Assembly: GCF_021049265.1 (NCBI RefSeq)
Contig: NZ_CP088018.1
Coordinates: 2,356,001-2,420,000, forward strand
DNA from: Ruania suaedae
GTDB lineage: Bacteria; Actinomycetota; Actinomycetes; Actinomycetales; Beutenbergiaceae
Direction: 5' to 3'
DNA length: 64,000 nucleotides
A model generated the notes under the pieces. That model made no database searches. It was not told the DNA's origin and saw only the letters and a list, made by a program, of their open reading frames with translations. Shown piece by piece: positions 37,740 through 49,928 of the stretch (position 1 is its first letter; each line of letters starts with the position of its first letter). Made by a program: the position numbers and the translations under genes.

Positions 37740-39383
37740 TCAGGCGGGCTGCGCGGGCTCCGCGCCGGCGTGCAGCAGGCCGTAGACCAGTCCGTCCACG
37801 AGCGCCTCCCACGAGGCCTCCAGCAGGTTCGCGCCCACACCGACCGTGCTCCAGGAGTGCTGGCCGTCGGTGAGCTCGATCAGCACCCGGGTGATCGCAT
37901 CGGTGCCGTGCGCGGAGTCGAGCAGACGCACCTTGTAGTCGATCAGCTCGATGTCCTCGATCTGCGGGTACGCCGTGGTCAGCGCCTGGCGCAGCGCGTG
38001 GTCGAGCGCGTTCACGGGACCGTTACCCTCACCGGTGCTCACCACCCGTCGGTTCCCGGCGTGGATCTTCACCGTCGCCTCGGCCACGTCCCGCATCACC
38101 CCGTCGGGGCCGGCGCTGTGGTCGACGATGGCCCGCCAGGACTCCGTGCGGAAGAACGCGGGGCGCTCACCGGTGATCTCCTCGCGCAGCAACAGCTCGA
38201 AGGAGGCGTCTGCGGCGTCGTAGGTGTACCCATTCGCCTCGGCGTCCTTGACGCGGGTGGTGACCCGCCCGAGCAGGTCGGACTGACCGGTGAGGTCGAA
38301 GCCCAGCTCGCGGCCCTTGAGCTCGATGCTGGCACGCCCGGCCATGTCCGAGACCAGCATCCGCATGTCGTTGCCGACCTTGCGCGGGTCGATGTGCTGG
38401 TACAGGTCCGGGTCGATCCGGATGGCACTGGCGTGCAGGCCGGCCTTGTGGGCGAAGGCGCTGGAGCCGATGTAGGGCTGGCGGGCGAAGGGGGCGATGT
38501 TGGTGACCTCGCTGATCGCGTGCGCGATCCGGGTGACCTCCTCCAGTCCGCCGCCGGAGAGGGTGCGCAGGCCGAGCTTGAGGTCGAGGTTGGCGACGAC
38601 CGCCAGCAGGTCCGCATTGCCGGTGCGCTCCCCGTAGCCGTTCACCGTGCCCTGCACGTGCCGGGCGCCGGCGCTGACGGCGGCCATCGAGTTGGCCACG
38701 GCGCAGCCGGAGTCGTTGTGGGCGTGCATGCCGAGGATGTGCCGGGACGGGTCGGTCCCGGCGCGCACCTCGCTGACGATCTCGTGCACCCACTCGGGGA
38801 GCATGCCGCCGTTGGTGTCGCACAGGGCGACCACCTCGGCGCCGGCCTCGAAGGCGGTGGTCACGGCCTGCATCGCGTAGCCGGGGTCGAACCGGTAGCC
38901 GTCGAAGAAGTGCTCGGCATCGAGCACCACCCGGCGACCCTCGCCCACCAGGTAGGAGATGGTGTCGGCGATCATGGCGAGGTTCTCCTCGCCGGTGGTG
39001 CGCAGCGCCCGCTCCACGTGGCGGATGTCGCTCTTGGCCACCAGGGTGACGGTCGGTGCCTCGGAGTCCAGCAGCGCGCGCACCTGGGTGTCGCGGTGCG
39101 CCGTCGTGCCGGGCTTGCGGGTGGAGCCGAACGCCGCGAGTTCGGCATTCTTGAGGTCCAGGTCCTTGGTGGCGCGCGCGAAGAACTCGGTGTCCTTGGG
39201 AATCGCTCCCGGCCACCCACCCTCGATGAACGTCACCCCGAGCTCGTCCAGCATCGGTGCGATGGCGAGCTTGTCCGCGACGGTGAGGTTCATGCCCTCC
39301 TGCTGGGCGCCGTCGCGCAGGGTGGTGTCGTAGACGTGCACGGCAGCGCCGTGATCGTCCTCGGGGCTTCGTGCGGTGCTCAT
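37740..39383 (-). CDS. cimA: (R)-citramalate synthase
   Basis: A 547-residue protein. VYDTTLRDGAQQEGMNLTVA is the HMGL-like active-site start with metal-binding Asp. LGMHAHNDSGCAVANSMAAV supplies the His-x-His metal ligands. QPYIGSSAFAHKAGLHASAI and a C-terminal LeuA regulatory domain (about residues 410-535) follow. It condenses pyruvate and acetyl-CoA to citramalate, the threonine-independent route to isoleucine. The 2-isopropylmalate synthase alternative is disfavoured by the CimA-type N-terminus with EGGWPGAIPKDTEFF. Preceded by an attenuator leader. Confidence 0.94.
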   Translation of the reverse strand: MSTARSPEDDHGAAVHVYDTTLRDGAQQEGMNLTVADKLAIAPMLDELGVTFIEGGWPGAIPKDTEFFARATKDLDLKNAELAAFGSTRKPGTTAHRDTQVRALLDSEAPTVTLVAKSDIRHVERALRTTGEENLAMIADTISYLVGEGRRVVLDAEHFFDGYRFDPGYAMQAVTTAFEAGAEVVALCDTNGGMLPEWVHEIVSEVRAGTDPSRHILGMHAHNDSGCAVANSMAAVSAGARHVQGTVNGYGERTGNADLLAVVANLDLKLGLRTLSGGGLEEVTRIAHAISEVTNIAPFARQPYIGSSAFAHKAGLHASAIRIDPDLYQHIDPRKVGNDMRMLVSDMAGRASIELKGRELGFDLTGQSDLLGRVTTRVKDAEANGYTYDAADASFELLLREEITGERPAFFRTESWRAIVDHSAGPDGVMRDVAEATVKIHAGNRRVVSTGEGNGPVNALDHALRQALTTAYPQIEDIELIDYKVRLLDSAHGTDAITRVLIELTDGQHSWSTVGVGANLLEASWEALVDGLVYGLLHAGAEPAQPA

Positions 39384-39415: not shown

Positions 39416-39444
39416 AAAAAGACCCCCCGGGGTTCGGGAGGTCT
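39416..39444 (-). terminator. Intrinsic terminator in the cimA leader (attenuator)
   Basis: On the minus strand AGACCTCCCG and CGGGGGGTCT form a 10-base stem (one G-T pair) with loop AACCC, followed by TTTTT. It lies between the leader peptide and the cimA ATG at 39383. Immediately before it is another perfect stem, GCGCGTTCAC/GTGAACGCGC with a 3-base loop (39445-39467). The arrangement is that of an amino-acid attenuator. The competing antiterminator pairing is not obvious by eye. Confidence 0.85.
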
Positions 39445-39466
39445 GCGCGTTCACGTGGTGAACGCG

Positions 39467-39499
39467 CTAGCCGATAATCAGGGCGCTGGTGAGCGTCAT
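39467..39499 (-). CDS. cimA leader peptide
   Basis: A 10-codon reading frame MTLTSALIIG ending in TAG at the base of the first leader hairpin. The Leu-Ile-Ile run (CTG ATT ATC) fits sensing of isoleucine/leucine tRNA charging, matching the downstream citramalate synthase. CATGAT lies 6 bases before the ATG, so the leader transcript may begin at the start codon. It is too short for standard gene callers. Confidence 0.75.
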   Translation of the reverse strand: MTLTSALIIG

Positions 39500-39538
39500 G
39501 TGCTCATCATGGCACATCGGCCGCCGTAGGCTCGGCAG

Positions 39539-41164
39539 GTGGAGATCCTGGTGCACCCCGCCGGTGAGCAGACCGTGCACCTTCTCGAGCTGGGGACCGA
39601 GCAGCGCCCGACGGCGCAGGTCACCCACCCACGCGCCGACCTCGCCCGGGTGGTGGCCCGCCACGAGCGGGAGCAGTCCGTGCGGTGGGTCTGGGCCGAC
39701 ACTGCCGCGCTCGTCCCGGAACTCATCGATGCCGGGGTGCGGGTCGGGCGCTGCCTCGACCTGCGGCTGTGCCGGGCGATCCTGGCGCATGCGGCGCCCG
39801 GACGGGACTGGCCGGACCTGGGCTGGACGGCCGTCACCGCTGCGGCCCCGCCCGGCGAGGTGGTGCCCCCGACCCTGTGGGAGGAGACCGCGACGACGCA
39901 GACGCTCTCCCTGGCGGAGGTGCTCGCCGAGCGGGAACTGCAGCAGGCGGCCGTCGCCGCCGGTGCCGGCCCGGAGCGGATGCGGCTGCTCCTGGCCGCG
40001 GAGTCCGCCGGCGCGCTCGTCGCGGCCGAGATCGCCGCCGATGGCCTGCCCTGGGACCGGGCGGTGCACGAGGAGCTCCTCACCGAGATGCTCGGGCCAC
40101 GACCCGCCGCCGGGGCCCGGCCGGCGCGGCTGGAACGCCTCGCCGGGCAGGTGCGCGAGCATCTGGCGGCCCCGACCCTCAACCCCGACTCCCAGCCCGA
40201 CCTGCTCCGCACGCTGCGCCGCTCCGGGCTCGACGTGCAGAGCACCTCCAAGTGGGAGATCGGGAGACTCGACCACCCGGTGGTGGCGCCGCTGCTGGAG
40301 TACAAGAAGCTCGCGCGGCTGCTCAGCGCCAACGGCTGGGGGTGGCTGGACCACTGGGTCCTGCCCGGGACCTCACCGGACCACCGGCACCGCTTCCGGC
40401 CCGACTACGTCCCCGGCGGGGTGGTGACCGGGCGGTGGGCCACCAGTGGCGGCGGTGCCCTGCAGTTGCCCAAGTCGCTGCGCCGGGCGGTCCGGGCCGA
40501 TCCCGGCTGGCGGCTCGTGGTGGCCGATGCCGCGCAGATCGAACCGCGGGTGCTGGCCGCGATGGCCTCCGACGACGCCCTGGCCGCCGCCGGTCAGGCC
40601 GGCGACCTCTACCAGGGACTGGTCGACCGCGGCATCATGGCCACCCGGGCGGAGGCGAAGGTGGCGATGCTCGGGGCGTTGTACGGGGCCACCACGGGCG
40701 AGGCCGGGCGCCTGATGCCGCGGCTGATACGCGCCTACCCCCGCGCCACCGCCGTCGTGGAGGAGGCCGCCCGCACCGGGGAGGCCGGAGGGACGGTCCA
40801 CACCTGGCTCGGCCGGACCACTCCCCCGCCCCCGCCGAGCTGGCGTGAGCGCCAGAGCGGGCGGGACAGGGGGCGCTTCACCCGCAACTTCGTCGTCCAG
40901 GGCACGGCAGCGGAGTGGGCCTTGTGCTGGATGGGCGAGATCCGCCGTCGCCTTGCAGCCCTGGCCCCCTTGCCCGAGCGGGCGCACCTGGTGTTCTTCC
41001 TGCACGACGAGGTGATCGTGCACACACCCGCGGACATGGCCGACCAGGTGGCCAGCGAGATCCGCGCTGCCGCCACCGAGGCCGGAAGGCTGCTGTTCGG
41101 CGCCACGGCGGTGGCGTTCCCGCTCGACGTCGCGATCGTGGACAGCTACGGCGAGACGGACTAG
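39539..41164 (+). CDS. Family A DNA polymerase-like protein (bifunctional exonuclease/polymerase annotation)
   Basis: A 541-residue protein lacking the 5'-nuclease domain. The polymerase half has motif A VVADAAQIEPRVLAAM (DAAQIEPR instead of DYSQIELR), motif B EAKVAMLGALYGATTG, GRFTRNFVVQGTAAEWA, and motif C LVFFLHDEVIVHT. The N-terminal 160 residues resemble a 3'-5' exonuclease fold but I cannot see the DEDD carboxylates. Distinct from replicative or repair Pol I by size. Possible repair polymerase; activity uncertain. GTG start, with TAGGCT 6 bases upstream and no ribosome site. Confidence 0.87.
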   Translation: MEILVHPAGEQTVHLLELGTEQRPTAQVTHPRADLARVVARHEREQSVRWVWADTAALVPELIDAGVRVGRCLDLRLCRAILAHAAPGRDWPDLGWTAVTAAAPPGEVVPPTLWEETATTQTLSLAEVLAERELQQAAVAAGAGPERMRLLLAAESAGALVAAEIAADGLPWDRAVHEELLTEMLGPRPAAGARPARLERLAGQVREHLAAPTLNPDSQPDLLRTLRRSGLDVQSTSKWEIGRLDHPVVAPLLEYKKLARLLSANGWGWLDHWVLPGTSPDHRHRFRPDYVPGGVVTGRWATSGGGALQLPKSLRRAVRADPGWRLVVADAAQIEPRVLAAMASDDALAAAGQAGDLYQGLVDRGIMATRAEAKVAMLGALYGATTGEAGRLMPRLIRAYPRATAVVEEAARTGEAGGTVHTWLGRTTPPPPPSWRERQSGRDRGRFTRNFVVQGTAAEWALCWMGEIRRRLAALAPLPERAHLVFFLHDEVIVHTPADMADQVASEIRAAATEAGRLLFGATAVAFPLDVAIVDSYGETD

Positions 41165-41165
41165 G

Positions 41166-42278
41166 TCAGGCCAGGCGCCGCATCCACCCGTAGGGGTCCT
41201 CGATCCGCCCGTACTGCAGATCGGTGAGGTGCTGGTAGAGCCACTGCGTGACCGGGCCGGCCTCGCCCCCGGCGACGGTGAGGTCGAAGGCGGTGCTCTT
41301 GAGCGTCCCGATCGGCGTGACCACCGCCGCGGTCCCGCAGGCGAAGATCTCCCGGATCCTGCCCGAGGCGATCTGCTCGGTGATCTCGGCCAGGCTGATC
41401 TGGCGCTCGTGCACCTGCCGGCCGTCGTCGGCGAGCAACTGCAGGATCGAGCGCCGGGTCACGCCCTCGAGGATGGTCCCCGTCAGTTCCGGGGTGTGCA
41501 CGGCGCCGTCGTCGGTGACGATGAAGACGTTCATCCCGCCGAGCTCCTCGAGATAGGAGTTCGTGGCGGCGTCGAGGAAACACACCTGCGCGCAGCCGTG
41601 CTCGACGGCCTGCTGCTGCGGGAGCAGGCTCGCGGCGTAGTTCCCGCCGCACTTGGCCGCCCCTGTGCCCCCCGGCCCGGCCCGGTGGTAGCCCTCGGCC
41701 ACCCAGATCGAGACCGGCTGGAAGCCGGAGGTGAAGTAGGGCCCGGACGGGGAGGCGATGAGCAGGTAGTCGACCTGCCGGGCCGGGCGCACCCCGAGGA
41801 AGGGCTCGGAGGCGAACATGAAGGGCCGCAGGTACAGGCTCGACCCCGCCGAGCTCGGCACCCACTCCATGTCGGTGGCCACCAGCGCCTCGATCGAGGC
41901 CAGGAAGTCCTCGGCCGGGAGCTCGGGCAGCGCGAGCCGGCGAGCGCTGGCCGCGAACCGCGCCGCATTGGCCTCGGGCCGGAACGCCCAGACCGAGCCG
42001 TCCGCGTGGCGGTAGGCCTTGAGGCCCTCGAAGATCTCCTGGGCGTAGTGCAGCACCGCGGCCGCAGGATCGAGGCTGATCGGCGCGTAGGCCTCCACCC
42101 GCTGGTCGTGCCAGCCGGCGTCCGCGCTCCAGACGGCGTGGGCCATGTGGTCGGAGAAGACGGTGCCGAAGGCGAGGTGCTCCAGCGCGGCCGTGCGCTC
42201 GGCGAGCGTGCGCGGATGGGAGGAGGGGCGCACCTCGAACGTCGACAACGCCGCTTCGCTGGACACTTCGCTGCTCAT
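41166..42278 (-). CDS. ilvE: Branched-chain amino acid aminotransferase (copy 1)
   Basis: A 370-residue PLP enzyme from MSSEVSSEAALSTFEVRPSS, ribosome site GAAGGAA. GPGGTGAAKCGGNYAASLLP holds the PLP-binding Lys. LHYAQEIFEGLKAYRHADGS and IFACGTAAVVTPIGTLKS are class IV aminotransferase/BCAT blocks. It interconverts Val/Leu/Ile and their 2-oxo acids. It ends one base after the polymerase-like gene, tail to tail. A near-identical paralogue lies immediately upstream. Confidence 0.95.
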   Translation of the reverse strand: MSSEVSSEAALSTFEVRPSSHPRTLAERTAALEHLAFGTVFSDHMAHAVWSADAGWHDQRVEAYAPISLDPAAAVLHYAQEIFEGLKAYRHADGSVWAFRPEANAARFAASARRLALPELPAEDFLASIEALVATDMEWVPSSAGSSLYLRPFMFASEPFLGVRPARQVDYLLIASPSGPYFTSGFQPVSIWVAEGYHRAGPGGTGAAKCGGNYAASLLPQQQAVEHGCAQVCFLDAATNSYLEELGGMNVFIVTDDGAVHTPELTGTILEGVTRRSILQLLADDGRQVHERQISLAEITEQIASGRIREIFACGTAAVVTPIGTLKSTAFDLTVAGGEAGPVTQWLYQHLTDLQYGRIEDPYGWMRRLA

Positions 42279-42300
42279 GTTCGTTCCTTCGCGTGCCTCG

Positions 42301-42320
42301 CCGTGCCGGTGCCGGCACGG
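42301..42320. repeat. Perfect inverted repeat upstream of ilvE copy 1
   Basis: CCGTGCCGG and CCGGCACGG flank two bases in the 99-base gap between the two ilvE genes, 23 bases before the copy 1 start. It could be a hairpin ending the upstream transcript or an operator; there is no T-tract. Confidence 0.5.
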
Positions 42321-42377
42321 ACTTCTCTGACTAGACGGTACCGCTGGTGTCACGGCCGGCGGCGGCGCCGGCGGGAC

Positions 42378-43499
42378 TCACGCCAGGCGGCGCAGCCATC
42401 CGTCCACGTCTGCCGTCGTACCGTACTGAATCCCCGTGAGCTTGTCGTGCAGGGCGGTGGTGAGCGGGCCGGGCCGGCCGTCACCGACGGTGACGTCGAA
42501 ATCGGTCCCGGCCAGCCGGCCGATCGGGGTGATCGCCGCGGCGGTGCCGCACGCCAGCAGCTCGGTCACCACCCCGCGCTCCACCCCGTCGAGGACCTCG
42601 GCCAGTGGGAGGGAGCGCTCGAGGACCTCCCGGCCCTCCTGGCGGAGCAGGTCGATCACCGAGCGGCGCGTGACCCCGGCGAGGATGGTCCCGGAGAGCT
42701 CGGGCGTGTGCACGCTGCCATCGGCCATGACCACCAGCACGTTCATGCTGCCGATCTCCTCCAGGGTGGTGCCGGTGGCGGCGTCCAGGAAGCAGACCTG
42801 GTCGCAGCCGTGCGCACGTGCCTGCTGCTGGGGACGCAGGCTCGCCGCATAGTTGCCACCACACTTGGCCGCGCCCGTCCCGCCCGGGCCGGCGCGGTGA
42901 TGCCCCTGGTCCACCCAGATCGAGACCGGGGCGAAGCCCTCGCCGAAGTACGAGCCCGCCGGCGAGGCGATCACCAGGTAGTCCACCCCGGCGGCCGGGC
43001 GCACCCCGAGGAAGGCCTCGGAGGCGAACATGAAGGGCCGCAGGTACAGGCTCGTGCCAGGCCGGTGCGGGACCCATGCCTCGTCGGCGCGCACCAGGGC
43101 CTCGATCGAGCCGAGGAAGTCCTCCTCGGGCAGCTCGGGCAGGGCCAGGCGCCGGGCGCTGGCCGCGAACCGGGCCGCGTTCAGCTCCGGCCGGAATGCC
43201 CACACCGAGCCGTCGGCGTGCCGGTAGGCCTTGAGGCCCTCGAAGATCTCCTGCCCGTAGTGCAGCACCGCGGCCGCCGGGTCCAGGCTCAGCGGGGCAT
43301 AGGCCTCCACGCGCCGGTCGGTCCACCCGGTCTGCGGCGTCCAGCGGGCGCGCGCCATGTGGTCGGTGAAGCGGGTGCCGAAGGCGGGTGCCTCGAGCAC
43401 CCGTTCACGCTCGGTTGCTGGGCAGGGTGCGGGGCTGGGGTGCACCCGATAGTGCACCGCCGTAGGGAGTGCTGTCGTCAACGGAGTGGGCCCTTCCAC
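42378..43499 (-). CDS. ilvE: Branched-chain amino acid aminotransferase (copy 2)
   Basis: A 373-residue PLP enzyme. GPGGTGAAKCGGNYAASLRP, LHYGQEIFEGLKAYRHADGS and LLACGTAAAITPIGRLAG match copy 1 nearly block for block, so the pair is a tandem duplication. The active-site Lys and surrounding motifs are intact. GTG at 43499 is the outermost start; TTG at 43481 has a better ribosome site (GGAAGGG) and may be the true one. It follows leuB by about 80 bases. Confidence 0.93.
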   Translation of the reverse strand: MEGPTPLTTALPTAVHYRVHPSPAPCPATERERVLEAPAFGTRFTDHMARARWTPQTGWTDRRVEAYAPLSLDPAAAVLHYGQEIFEGLKAYRHADGSVWAFRPELNAARFAASARRLALPELPEEDFLGSIEALVRADEAWVPHRPGTSLYLRPFMFASEAFLGVRPAAGVDYLVIASPAGSYFGEGFAPVSIWVDQGHHRAGPGGTGAAKCGGNYAASLRPQQQARAHGCDQVCFLDAATGTTLEEIGSMNVLVVMADGSVHTPELSGTILAGVTRRSVIDLLRQEGREVLERSLPLAEVLDGVERGVVTELLACGTAAAITPIGRLAGTDFDVTVGDGRPGPLTTALHDKLTGIQYGTTADVDGWLRRLA

Positions 43500-49800: not shown

Positions 49801-49832
49801 AAAAACCCCTCGCCCGGAATGGGATCGAGGGG
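49801..49832 (-). terminator. Intrinsic terminator in the ilvB leader (attenuator)
   Basis: On the minus strand CCCCTCG and CGAGGGG form a stem, with additional inner pairing CCC/GGG, followed by TTTTT. It lies between the leader peptide and ilvB. A separate 10-base inverted repeat (49850-49859 with 49891-49900) places one arm exactly over the leader's Val codons, so ribosome position would decide which hairpins form. Confidence 0.88.
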
Positions 49833-49859
49833 TGCGCGCTCGGCGGAAGTCGTCGTCGT

Positions 49860-49916
49860 TCAGACGGCCGCGCGAGCGCGCCCGGTAAGTACGACGACGA
49901 GGGAATCCGTGAACAT
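49860..49916 (-). CDS. ilvB leader peptide
   Basis: An 18-residue frame MFTDSLVVVLTGRARAAV with Leu-Val-Val-Val-Leu codons at 49901-49887, as expected for attenuation by branched-chain aminoacyl-tRNAs. The Val codons lie in one arm of the 49850-49859/49891-49900 stem. TAGGAT sits 6 bases before the ATG, so the leader RNA may start at the ATG. Confidence 0.88.
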   Translation of the reverse strand: MFTDSLVVVLTGRARAAV

Positions 49917-49922
49917 GGGTCG

Positions 49923-49928
49923 ATCCTA
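49923..49928 (-). promoter_or_regulatory. -10 element of the ilvBNC promoter
   Basis: TAGGAT on the minus strand, 6 bases before the leader peptide ATG. A TTGTGA about 20 bases further upstream could be a weak -35. No other start-proximal promoter is visible for ilvBNC. Confidence 0.6.

Follow-up and report, generated by a model that had tools for sequence, protein, structure and literature searches.

The citramalate synthase gene of Ruania suaedae is preceded by a short reading frame, a hairpin and a terminator, which raises the question of whether the three form an attenuator and, if so, which amino acid they sense and by what switch. The gene lies on the minus strand at 37740..39383 (ATG at 39383) of the 64,000-nt stretch of contig NZ_CP088018.1 that we analyzed, hereafter the window, whose numbering is used throughout. 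Its identity as cimA, proposed in a first-pass annotation, holds: the product scores 622.9 bits against the curated equivalog model TIGR00977, for which the cut-off is 450. The 3' neighbor of cimA in the window is a lipoate ligase gene, and a DNA polymerase-like gene starts on the opposite strand at 39539 and points away from the leader. The nearest identified minus-strand gene upstream of the leader is ilvE; since its end is about 1.7 kb off, the leader terminator is not that of ilvE. Two ilvE-type transaminase genes occur in tandem on the minus strand (41166-42353 and 42378-43499), both scoring above the NCBIfam cut-off. Another protein of this genome carries a threonine dehydratase regulatory domain, which means that 2-ketobutyrate may also arise here by a route other than cimA.

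The ten-codon frame, perfect ten-base hairpin and TTTTT-bearing terminator described in the first-pass annotation are indeed located between 39499 and the cimA ATG. All lie on the minus strand. The leader ORF (39467..39499; ATG ACG CTC ACC AGC GCC CTG ATT ATC GGC TAG) encodes MTLTSALIIG, an assignment drawn from the sequence and from the amino-acid-blind frame test described below; its putative regulatory codons, ATT ATC (Ile-Ile, 39473..39478), are those given by the hairpin-fixed frame in cimA elements. Hairpin 1 (39445..39467; GCGCGTTCAC-CAC-GTGAACGCGC), identified by sequence, folding and covariation, has a perfect 10-bp stem and a CAC loop, and its first G doubles as the final base of the leader stop codon. 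The terminator hairpin, found by folding and terminator search (39420..39444; AGACCTCCCG-aaccc-CGGGGGGTCT, 10 pairs), starts on the base directly after hairpin 1 and runs into the U tract TTTTT (39416..39420), whose end at 39416 is 32 nt from the cimA ATG. An intrinsic terminator is thus present between leader ORF and cimA, as an attenuator demands. In folding, a 116-nt leader stretch reached -48.4 kcal/mol (z -4.08), with none of 200 shuffles as good, and a search of 401 bases returned three overlapping terminator-like sites where shuffled sequence gave a mean of 0.0.

We consider it likely that this leader is a cis-acting, ribosome-mediated transcription attenuator through which cimA expression answers to charged tRNA-Ile. 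The anatomy, conservation, covariation, match between codons and downstream gene, and geometry behind this reading are observed; the direction of the response, termination in vivo and a leaderless start are what we infer. Conserved structure ahead of an amino-acid gene could also point to a ligand- or tRNA-binding RNA, a riboswitch or T-box, but that is scarcely credible here. Rfam gave no match at the gathering threshold anywhere in the window, and so no T-box and no known riboswitch; below it, the leader drew two sRNA families and Phe_leader, the best (E 0.0016) being an unrelated sRNA family. Moreover, the letters kept across elements belong to codons and stem pairs, and hairpin 1 loops range in length from 3 to 56 nt.

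Conservation was assessed with a covariance model built from 30 cimA leaders. Its training set includes the window leader, so the own-genome score is not independent; in that genome the window site was the only match at E <= 10. A leader outside the training alignment, from a genome of the same family, scored 79.5 bits (E 1.2e-16). Across the class, with a match defined as E <= 0.001, 233 of 393 genomes and 87 of 123 genera were matched. By hand count, matches fell in 225 of the 308 genomes with cimA over the cut-off and in 8 of the 85 others; for three of these eight the cimA score is fragmentary, and loci fetched from two turned out to be leaders of ilvB, leuS or leuA. Many of the 83 cimA-bearing genomes without a match belong to a single family of small genomes (f29), none of which was matched. 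The gene behind the match is nearly always cimA: it follows all 29 of the best-scoring class matches (the window's own excluded) and 38 of 40 more chosen for genus spread, the remaining two being followed by ilvB and by none of the four query proteins. Together, 67 of 69 class matches precede cimA (loci L082-L111 without L110, and L152-L191). A pattern search recovered an Ile-codon leader, hairpin and terminator at 32 of 80 named cimA loci, among them loci of Isoptericola, Cellulosimicrobium, Cellulomonas, Demequina, Nonomuraea, Amycolatopsis, Kutzneria, Pseudonocardia and Motilibacter. Leader frame, hairpin, terminator and tandem Ile codons are therefore kept before cimA in much of the class, as an attenuator there had been expected to show. 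One genome carries two near-identical cimA leaders (L143 and L144), one at a contig end, reflecting either duplication or assembly overlap. A leader from Ilumatobacteraceae (L058; peptide MKSLSASEIIIIC) keeps the layout with another hairpin sequence, GGCGTACGT...ACGTACGCC.

Where the leader is missing, gene order is telling. Among the first 45 named loci (L002-L046), 30 have a leader and 15 do not; in 14 of those 15, the cimA match is preceded on its own strand, at no more than 120 nt, by the end of an ilvE match. None of the 32 leader-bearing named loci has ilvE or leuB ending that close to cimA, and in eight of them one of the two lies within 700 nt, beyond the leader. For the other 33 leaderless named loci, mostly from more distant organisms, ilvE or leuB was within 60 nt in two. 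The absence of the leader when cimA sits directly behind ilvE indicates that the leader goes with cimA as the first gene of a transcript.

The same design recurs within the genome, in front of cimA (MTLTSALIIG), ilvB (MFTDSLVVVLTGRARAAV) and leuS (MQQVLLLNEPRR). The ilvB sister, roughly 10 kb from the cimA leader and in the same window, comprises on the minus strand a -10 hexamer TAGGAT with 6 nt before the leader start (49917..49928), the leader ORF for MFTDSLVVVLTGRARAAV and its stop (49860..49916), both called from sequence, and, from sequence and hairpin parsing, a hairpin 1 (GCGCGCTCG...CGAGCGCGC; 49834..49881) and a terminator with U tract (49801..49833). The leuS leader is found at contig positions 2064135-2064206 (L195, L218). 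A leuA leader in this genome, MRIDVSLLLRCRAEAH, has a Leu-Leu-Leu run and no U tract behind it. A -10-like hexamer stands 6 nt before the ATG of all three leaders of the shared design, and TTGAC occurs in the -35 region of 16 of 19 ilvB leaders. The cimA-trained model picks up ilvB and leuS leaders as well: in 34 class genomes with at least two matches, 35 loci were fetched, mostly the weaker ones, and proved to be 17 ilvB, 10 leuS, 1 leuA (by eye) and 7 cimA. Common to the ilvB, leuS and cimA elements is a GCGCG/GCCGCG hairpin at or near the stop codon, abutting the terminator. Model R2 contains the cimA, ilvB and leuS elements of R. suaedae, which are thus strong matches by construction; its fourth own-genome match, just upstream of leuA, is not significant (E 0.11).

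Which amino acid is sensed was asked with a blind frame test, in which the first base of hairpin 1 is taken as a third codon base and the five upstream codons are read with amino acids ignored; our scored ORF choice for parsed elements gave credit for the expected residues, so that codon claims based on it would be circular. In this hairpin-fixed frame Ile-Ile occurs in 88 of 106 cimA elements, 0 of 19 ilvB elements and 0 of 11 leuS elements, the cimA rate being overstated to the extent that the covariance model and the named-locus regular expression favor or require ATTATC-like sequence, and lowered by 10 of the 106 elements that read TAGG or TGAG at the box, where the fixed frame is one base off. 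The other two frames of the cimA elements hold Ile-Ile in 3 and 7 of 106. All 19 ilvB elements have Val-Val, Leu-Val or Val-Leu, and 10 of 11 leuS elements have Leu-Leu-Leu, with other frames nearly empty; apart from the two from R. suaedae itself, these elements came from the cimA-trained model, that is, against its bias. L058, which is without the box, and L126, a leuA-type element (leuA by eye from the protein start) that uses another frame, stand outside these counts.

Further statistics refer to 103 parsed cimA elements, namely 108 minus L132, L157 and L175 (misparsed) and L037 and L143 (near-copies), duplicate loci L098, L103, L178 and L110 having been removed ahead of parsing. Only a single Ile is present in 8 of the 103 leaders. 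In 53 the stop codon ends at most 3 nt from where hairpin 1 begins; in the other 50 the frame continues to a stop within the hairpin's 5' arm or loop, which a translated frame would be expected to do. The residue ahead of the Ile run is Leu in only 38, and otherwise V, A, S, T or others. Of the Ile/Leu leader peptide first described, then, the isoleucine half stands, and the cimA leader is, by its conserved codons, a probable sensor of isoleucine; dual Ile/Leu sensing was rejected, since Leu is not conserved.

ATT accounts for 121 of 250 leader Ile codons versus 67 of 1453 in cimA frames; counted against ATT plus ATC, the enrichment over the same loci's frames (67/1444) corresponds to an odds ratio of 19, for which 98 of the 103 cimA frames read open and the relatedness of the sequences keeps the p-value from being taken at face value. 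The choice of leader ORF rewarded Ile and not ATT, but the element-finding model and regular expression favor ATT/ATC-like strings. One tRNA-Ile reads both ATT and ATC, and the strong enrichment raises the question of why a wobble codon is kept in the leaders. Visual inspection shows GTA and CTT recurring among ilvB leaders, and CTT among those of leuS.

An extended -10 promoter element, TGC-CATGAT, is predicted from its sequence pattern 6 nt 5' of the window leader's start codon (39506..39514, minus strand). We searched for TGNYANNNT 5-8 nt 5' of leader starts, and found it 6, 7 or 8 nt before the start in 69 of 102 distinct cimA upstreams versus 0.18 in shuffled sequence, a count that leans upward because start codons were chosen with some reward for a -10. 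An extended -10 so close to the start suggests that the leader ORF is probably translated leaderless, and transcription starting downstream of the leader, which would have undone the attenuator proposal, is unlikely given this motif.

With codons, promoter and gene order in hand, the view that the locus holds an ordinary terminator beside a chance ORF, or an sRNA or microprotein gene with no link to cimA, becomes very improbable. Short ORFs are common by chance, and the sub-threshold Rfam matches include sRNA families; against this, the codon run tracks the downstream gene, cimA comes next in nearly every class match fetched, the promoter pattern is present, and the leader is usually missing where cimA directly follows ilvE.

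How might such a leader switch? In the seed alignment, the five outer pairs of hairpin 1 are invariant, and each of the five inner ones shows double changes. Both sides had changed in 40 of 300 cells, compared with 11.2 on average after shuffling and 1-7 in slid controls, but 142 of 500 shuffles also reached five pairs with a double change; relatedness alone can let sequences outscore shuffles in the absence of structure, and invariant pairs count for nothing, making the slid controls the better argument. The hairpin's position is nearly fixed: of the 103 parsed elements, 76 have no spacer before the terminator and 21 have one of 1 nt, and in most elements the two hairpins share no bases. (The parser misread many ilvB elements, and hairpin statistics exclude them.) We assumed a ribosome footprint reaching 13 nt past the first base of the A-site codon, close to values in the available portions of PMC4833913 and PMC13236596. 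Placing the first Ile codon in the A site leaves 73% (median over the 103 elements) of the hairpin 1 5' arm uncovered, and with the ribosome at the stop codon the arm is wholly covered in 101 of them; the corresponding predicted probabilities of hairpin 1 are 0.75 and 0.00.

The terminator showed no such dependence. Its mean predicted probability was 0.95-0.96 whether the leader was free or carried a ribosome at either of the last two Ile codons, the first Ile codon or the stop, so that equilibrium folding predicts termination always. In the alternative-fold check proposed with the first-pass annotation, no general antiterminator was found by folding, with masking at two Ile positions, the first Ile codon and the stop, or in a snapshot before the terminator 3' arm is made. 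The attenuator proposal therefore keeps its conserved leader, hairpin and terminator, but folding gave it no competing antiterminator, and a textbook trp-like switch cannot be claimed from these models. A switch of that classical kind, in which an Ile stall disrupts hairpin 1 and the freed 3' arm or loop pairs with a terminator arm, is possible but doubtful. It gains from the ribosome on the last Ile codon, which breaks most of hairpin 1 (mean probability 0.95 to 0.24), from the pre-terminator snapshot, where at least 4 bases of the terminator 5' arm are paired in 60 of 103 elements (a count without a shuffled control), and from the pairing of P1 loop with terminator 3' arm proposed for Corynebacterium ulcerans ilvB-II (PMC10272879, from its available portion). 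It loses by the survival of most of hairpin 1 with the ribosome at the first Ile codon, by the window element, which has 0 paired bases in the snapshot, and by loop complementarity to the terminator 3' arm, which averages z -0.35 over 103 elements against shuffled loops. Some single elements reach z -2 to -3; the window element stands at +1.56, and the ilvB-II pairing was not found as a general feature of the cimA elements. By eye, one branch (for example L082, L101 and L148) could form a kissing contact between GGAC in the hairpin 1 loop and GTCC in the terminator loop, which we dropped as a general mechanism; it is absent in the window.

Because the hairpins in most elements share no bases and the terminator probability stays constant throughout, we considered steric contact, kinetic competition or a missed pairing as the switch, and rank contact first and the classical form second. 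In the proposed sequence of events, transcription would start at, or 1-2 nt from, the leader ATG, and a ribosome would load on the leaderless ORF. With Ile-tRNA plentiful, it would pass ATT ATC to the stop codon, with its footprint over all of the hairpin 1 5' arm; the terminator would then form and RNA polymerase halt before cimA. With Ile-tRNA short, the ribosome would stall on the first Ile codon and leave hairpin 1 mostly intact, and the intact hairpin, abutting the terminator base without a spacer, would sterically oppose the terminator's last pairs and allow read-through into cimA. This contact, suggested by analogy with C. glutamicum ilvBNC, is the least certain part of the scheme and our best guess, to which we give slightly less than even odds. 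It implies that an untranslated leader should read through; in contrast, expression of C. glutamicum ilvBNC falls by 80% when the start codon of its leader is mutated (PMC11857589, citing earlier work; available portion). It also sits poorly with the predicted loss of most of hairpin 1 when the ribosome halts at the last Ile codon. A direct effect of translation or of the expressome, in which a stalled ribosome close behind the polymerase itself blocks termination, would make an antiterminator unnecessary, and the first Ile codon is 58 nt upstream of the U tract. We regard it as improbable: a 13-nt footprint keeps the ribosome edge some 20 nt upstream of the terminator, and hairpin 1 would be functionless, yet it covaries in an almost constant position.

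The design extends beyond the class. In a phylum sample of 296 genomes, the cimA-leader model matched 27, 15 of them outside the class. Of 17 out-of-class matches fetched, 13 precede ilvB, one precedes cimA (with four Ile codons), two are unassigned, and one (L203) is a Val-Ile-Ile-Ile leader heading a leuB-ilvE-cimA run, with leuB and ilvE recognized by eye. The ilvB form of the leader thus looks older and wider than the cimA form. We would put forward only tentatively, as a conjecture that may well be wrong, that a single attenuator design serves the whole phylum, its specificity set simply by which codons fill the run (Ile ahead of cimA, Val/Leu ahead of ilvB, Leu ahead of leuS and, in one case, leuA) and its action requiring no alternative RNA fold, the ribosome covering or uncovering a hairpin that touches the terminator base and by that contact blocks termination.

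Related leaders are known, and we describe them from the available portions of the cited papers. Leader peptides with terminators have been reported in Actinobacteria for ilvB and leuS (Seliverstov et al. 2005, PMC1262725; S. lividans list in PMC8079986); like the cimA leader they are short, with branched-chain codons and a terminator with U tract, and differ from it in target gene and in that only Ile codons are conserved before cimA. S. lividans leaders of this kind are reported as transcribed leaderless (PMC8079986), and transcription of C. glutamicum ilvBNC starts one nucleotide from the leader start codon (PMC11857589). PMC1262725 calls the switching mode of actinobacterial ilvB leaders not clear, and reports that codon mutations in the S. 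coelicolor ilvB leader were without effect, a point against our reading of the cimA leader. The Corynebacterium ilvB-II and ilvBNC leaders share with cimA an upstream ORF, a first hairpin and an adjacent terminator hairpin (PMC10272879, PMC11857589). An antiterminator overlapping the terminator has been proposed for Corynebacterium ilvB, the bases of the two structures adjoining and overlapping in C. glutamicum ilvBNC (PMC11857589), whereas folding of the cimA leader finds none. In M. tuberculosis ilvB1 (PMC13236596), a stall at LVVI frees an antiterminator that a ribosome at the stop masks, the same geometry as for cimA hairpin 1, although the gene and codons are different and ilvB1 has an explicit alternative fold. 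The LEU element of leuA (PMC1262725) resembles the leuA leader of R. suaedae in its Leu-run leader and lack of a U tract; unlike the cimA leader, it has a pseudoknot and no terminator. A term search of the main text of PMC8079986, as available, gave 0 occurrences of cimA or citramalate, and the available portions of PMC1262725, PMC4833913, PMC10272879, PMC11857589, PMC2965389, PMC13236596 and PMC12452182 name no cimA leader. We found no report of one in the literature searched, a weak absence as most subscription papers fall outside its coverage; the ilvB and leuS leaders are already known, and the cimA leader is apparently unreported within those bounds.

If the attenuator reading is right, tRNA-Ile would control the threonine-independent route to isoleucine across a large share of the actinobacteria, with an Ile-only sensor beside the mixed sensor of ilvB. 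One scaffold with naturally exchanged codon runs, present in three versions within a single genome, offers a ready test of how actinobacterial attenuators work. As a minor observation on the ilvB sister (49801-49928, minus strand), its hairpin 1 loop, ACGACGACGAC, is by eye complementary to its own Val codons, GTCGTCGTCGT.
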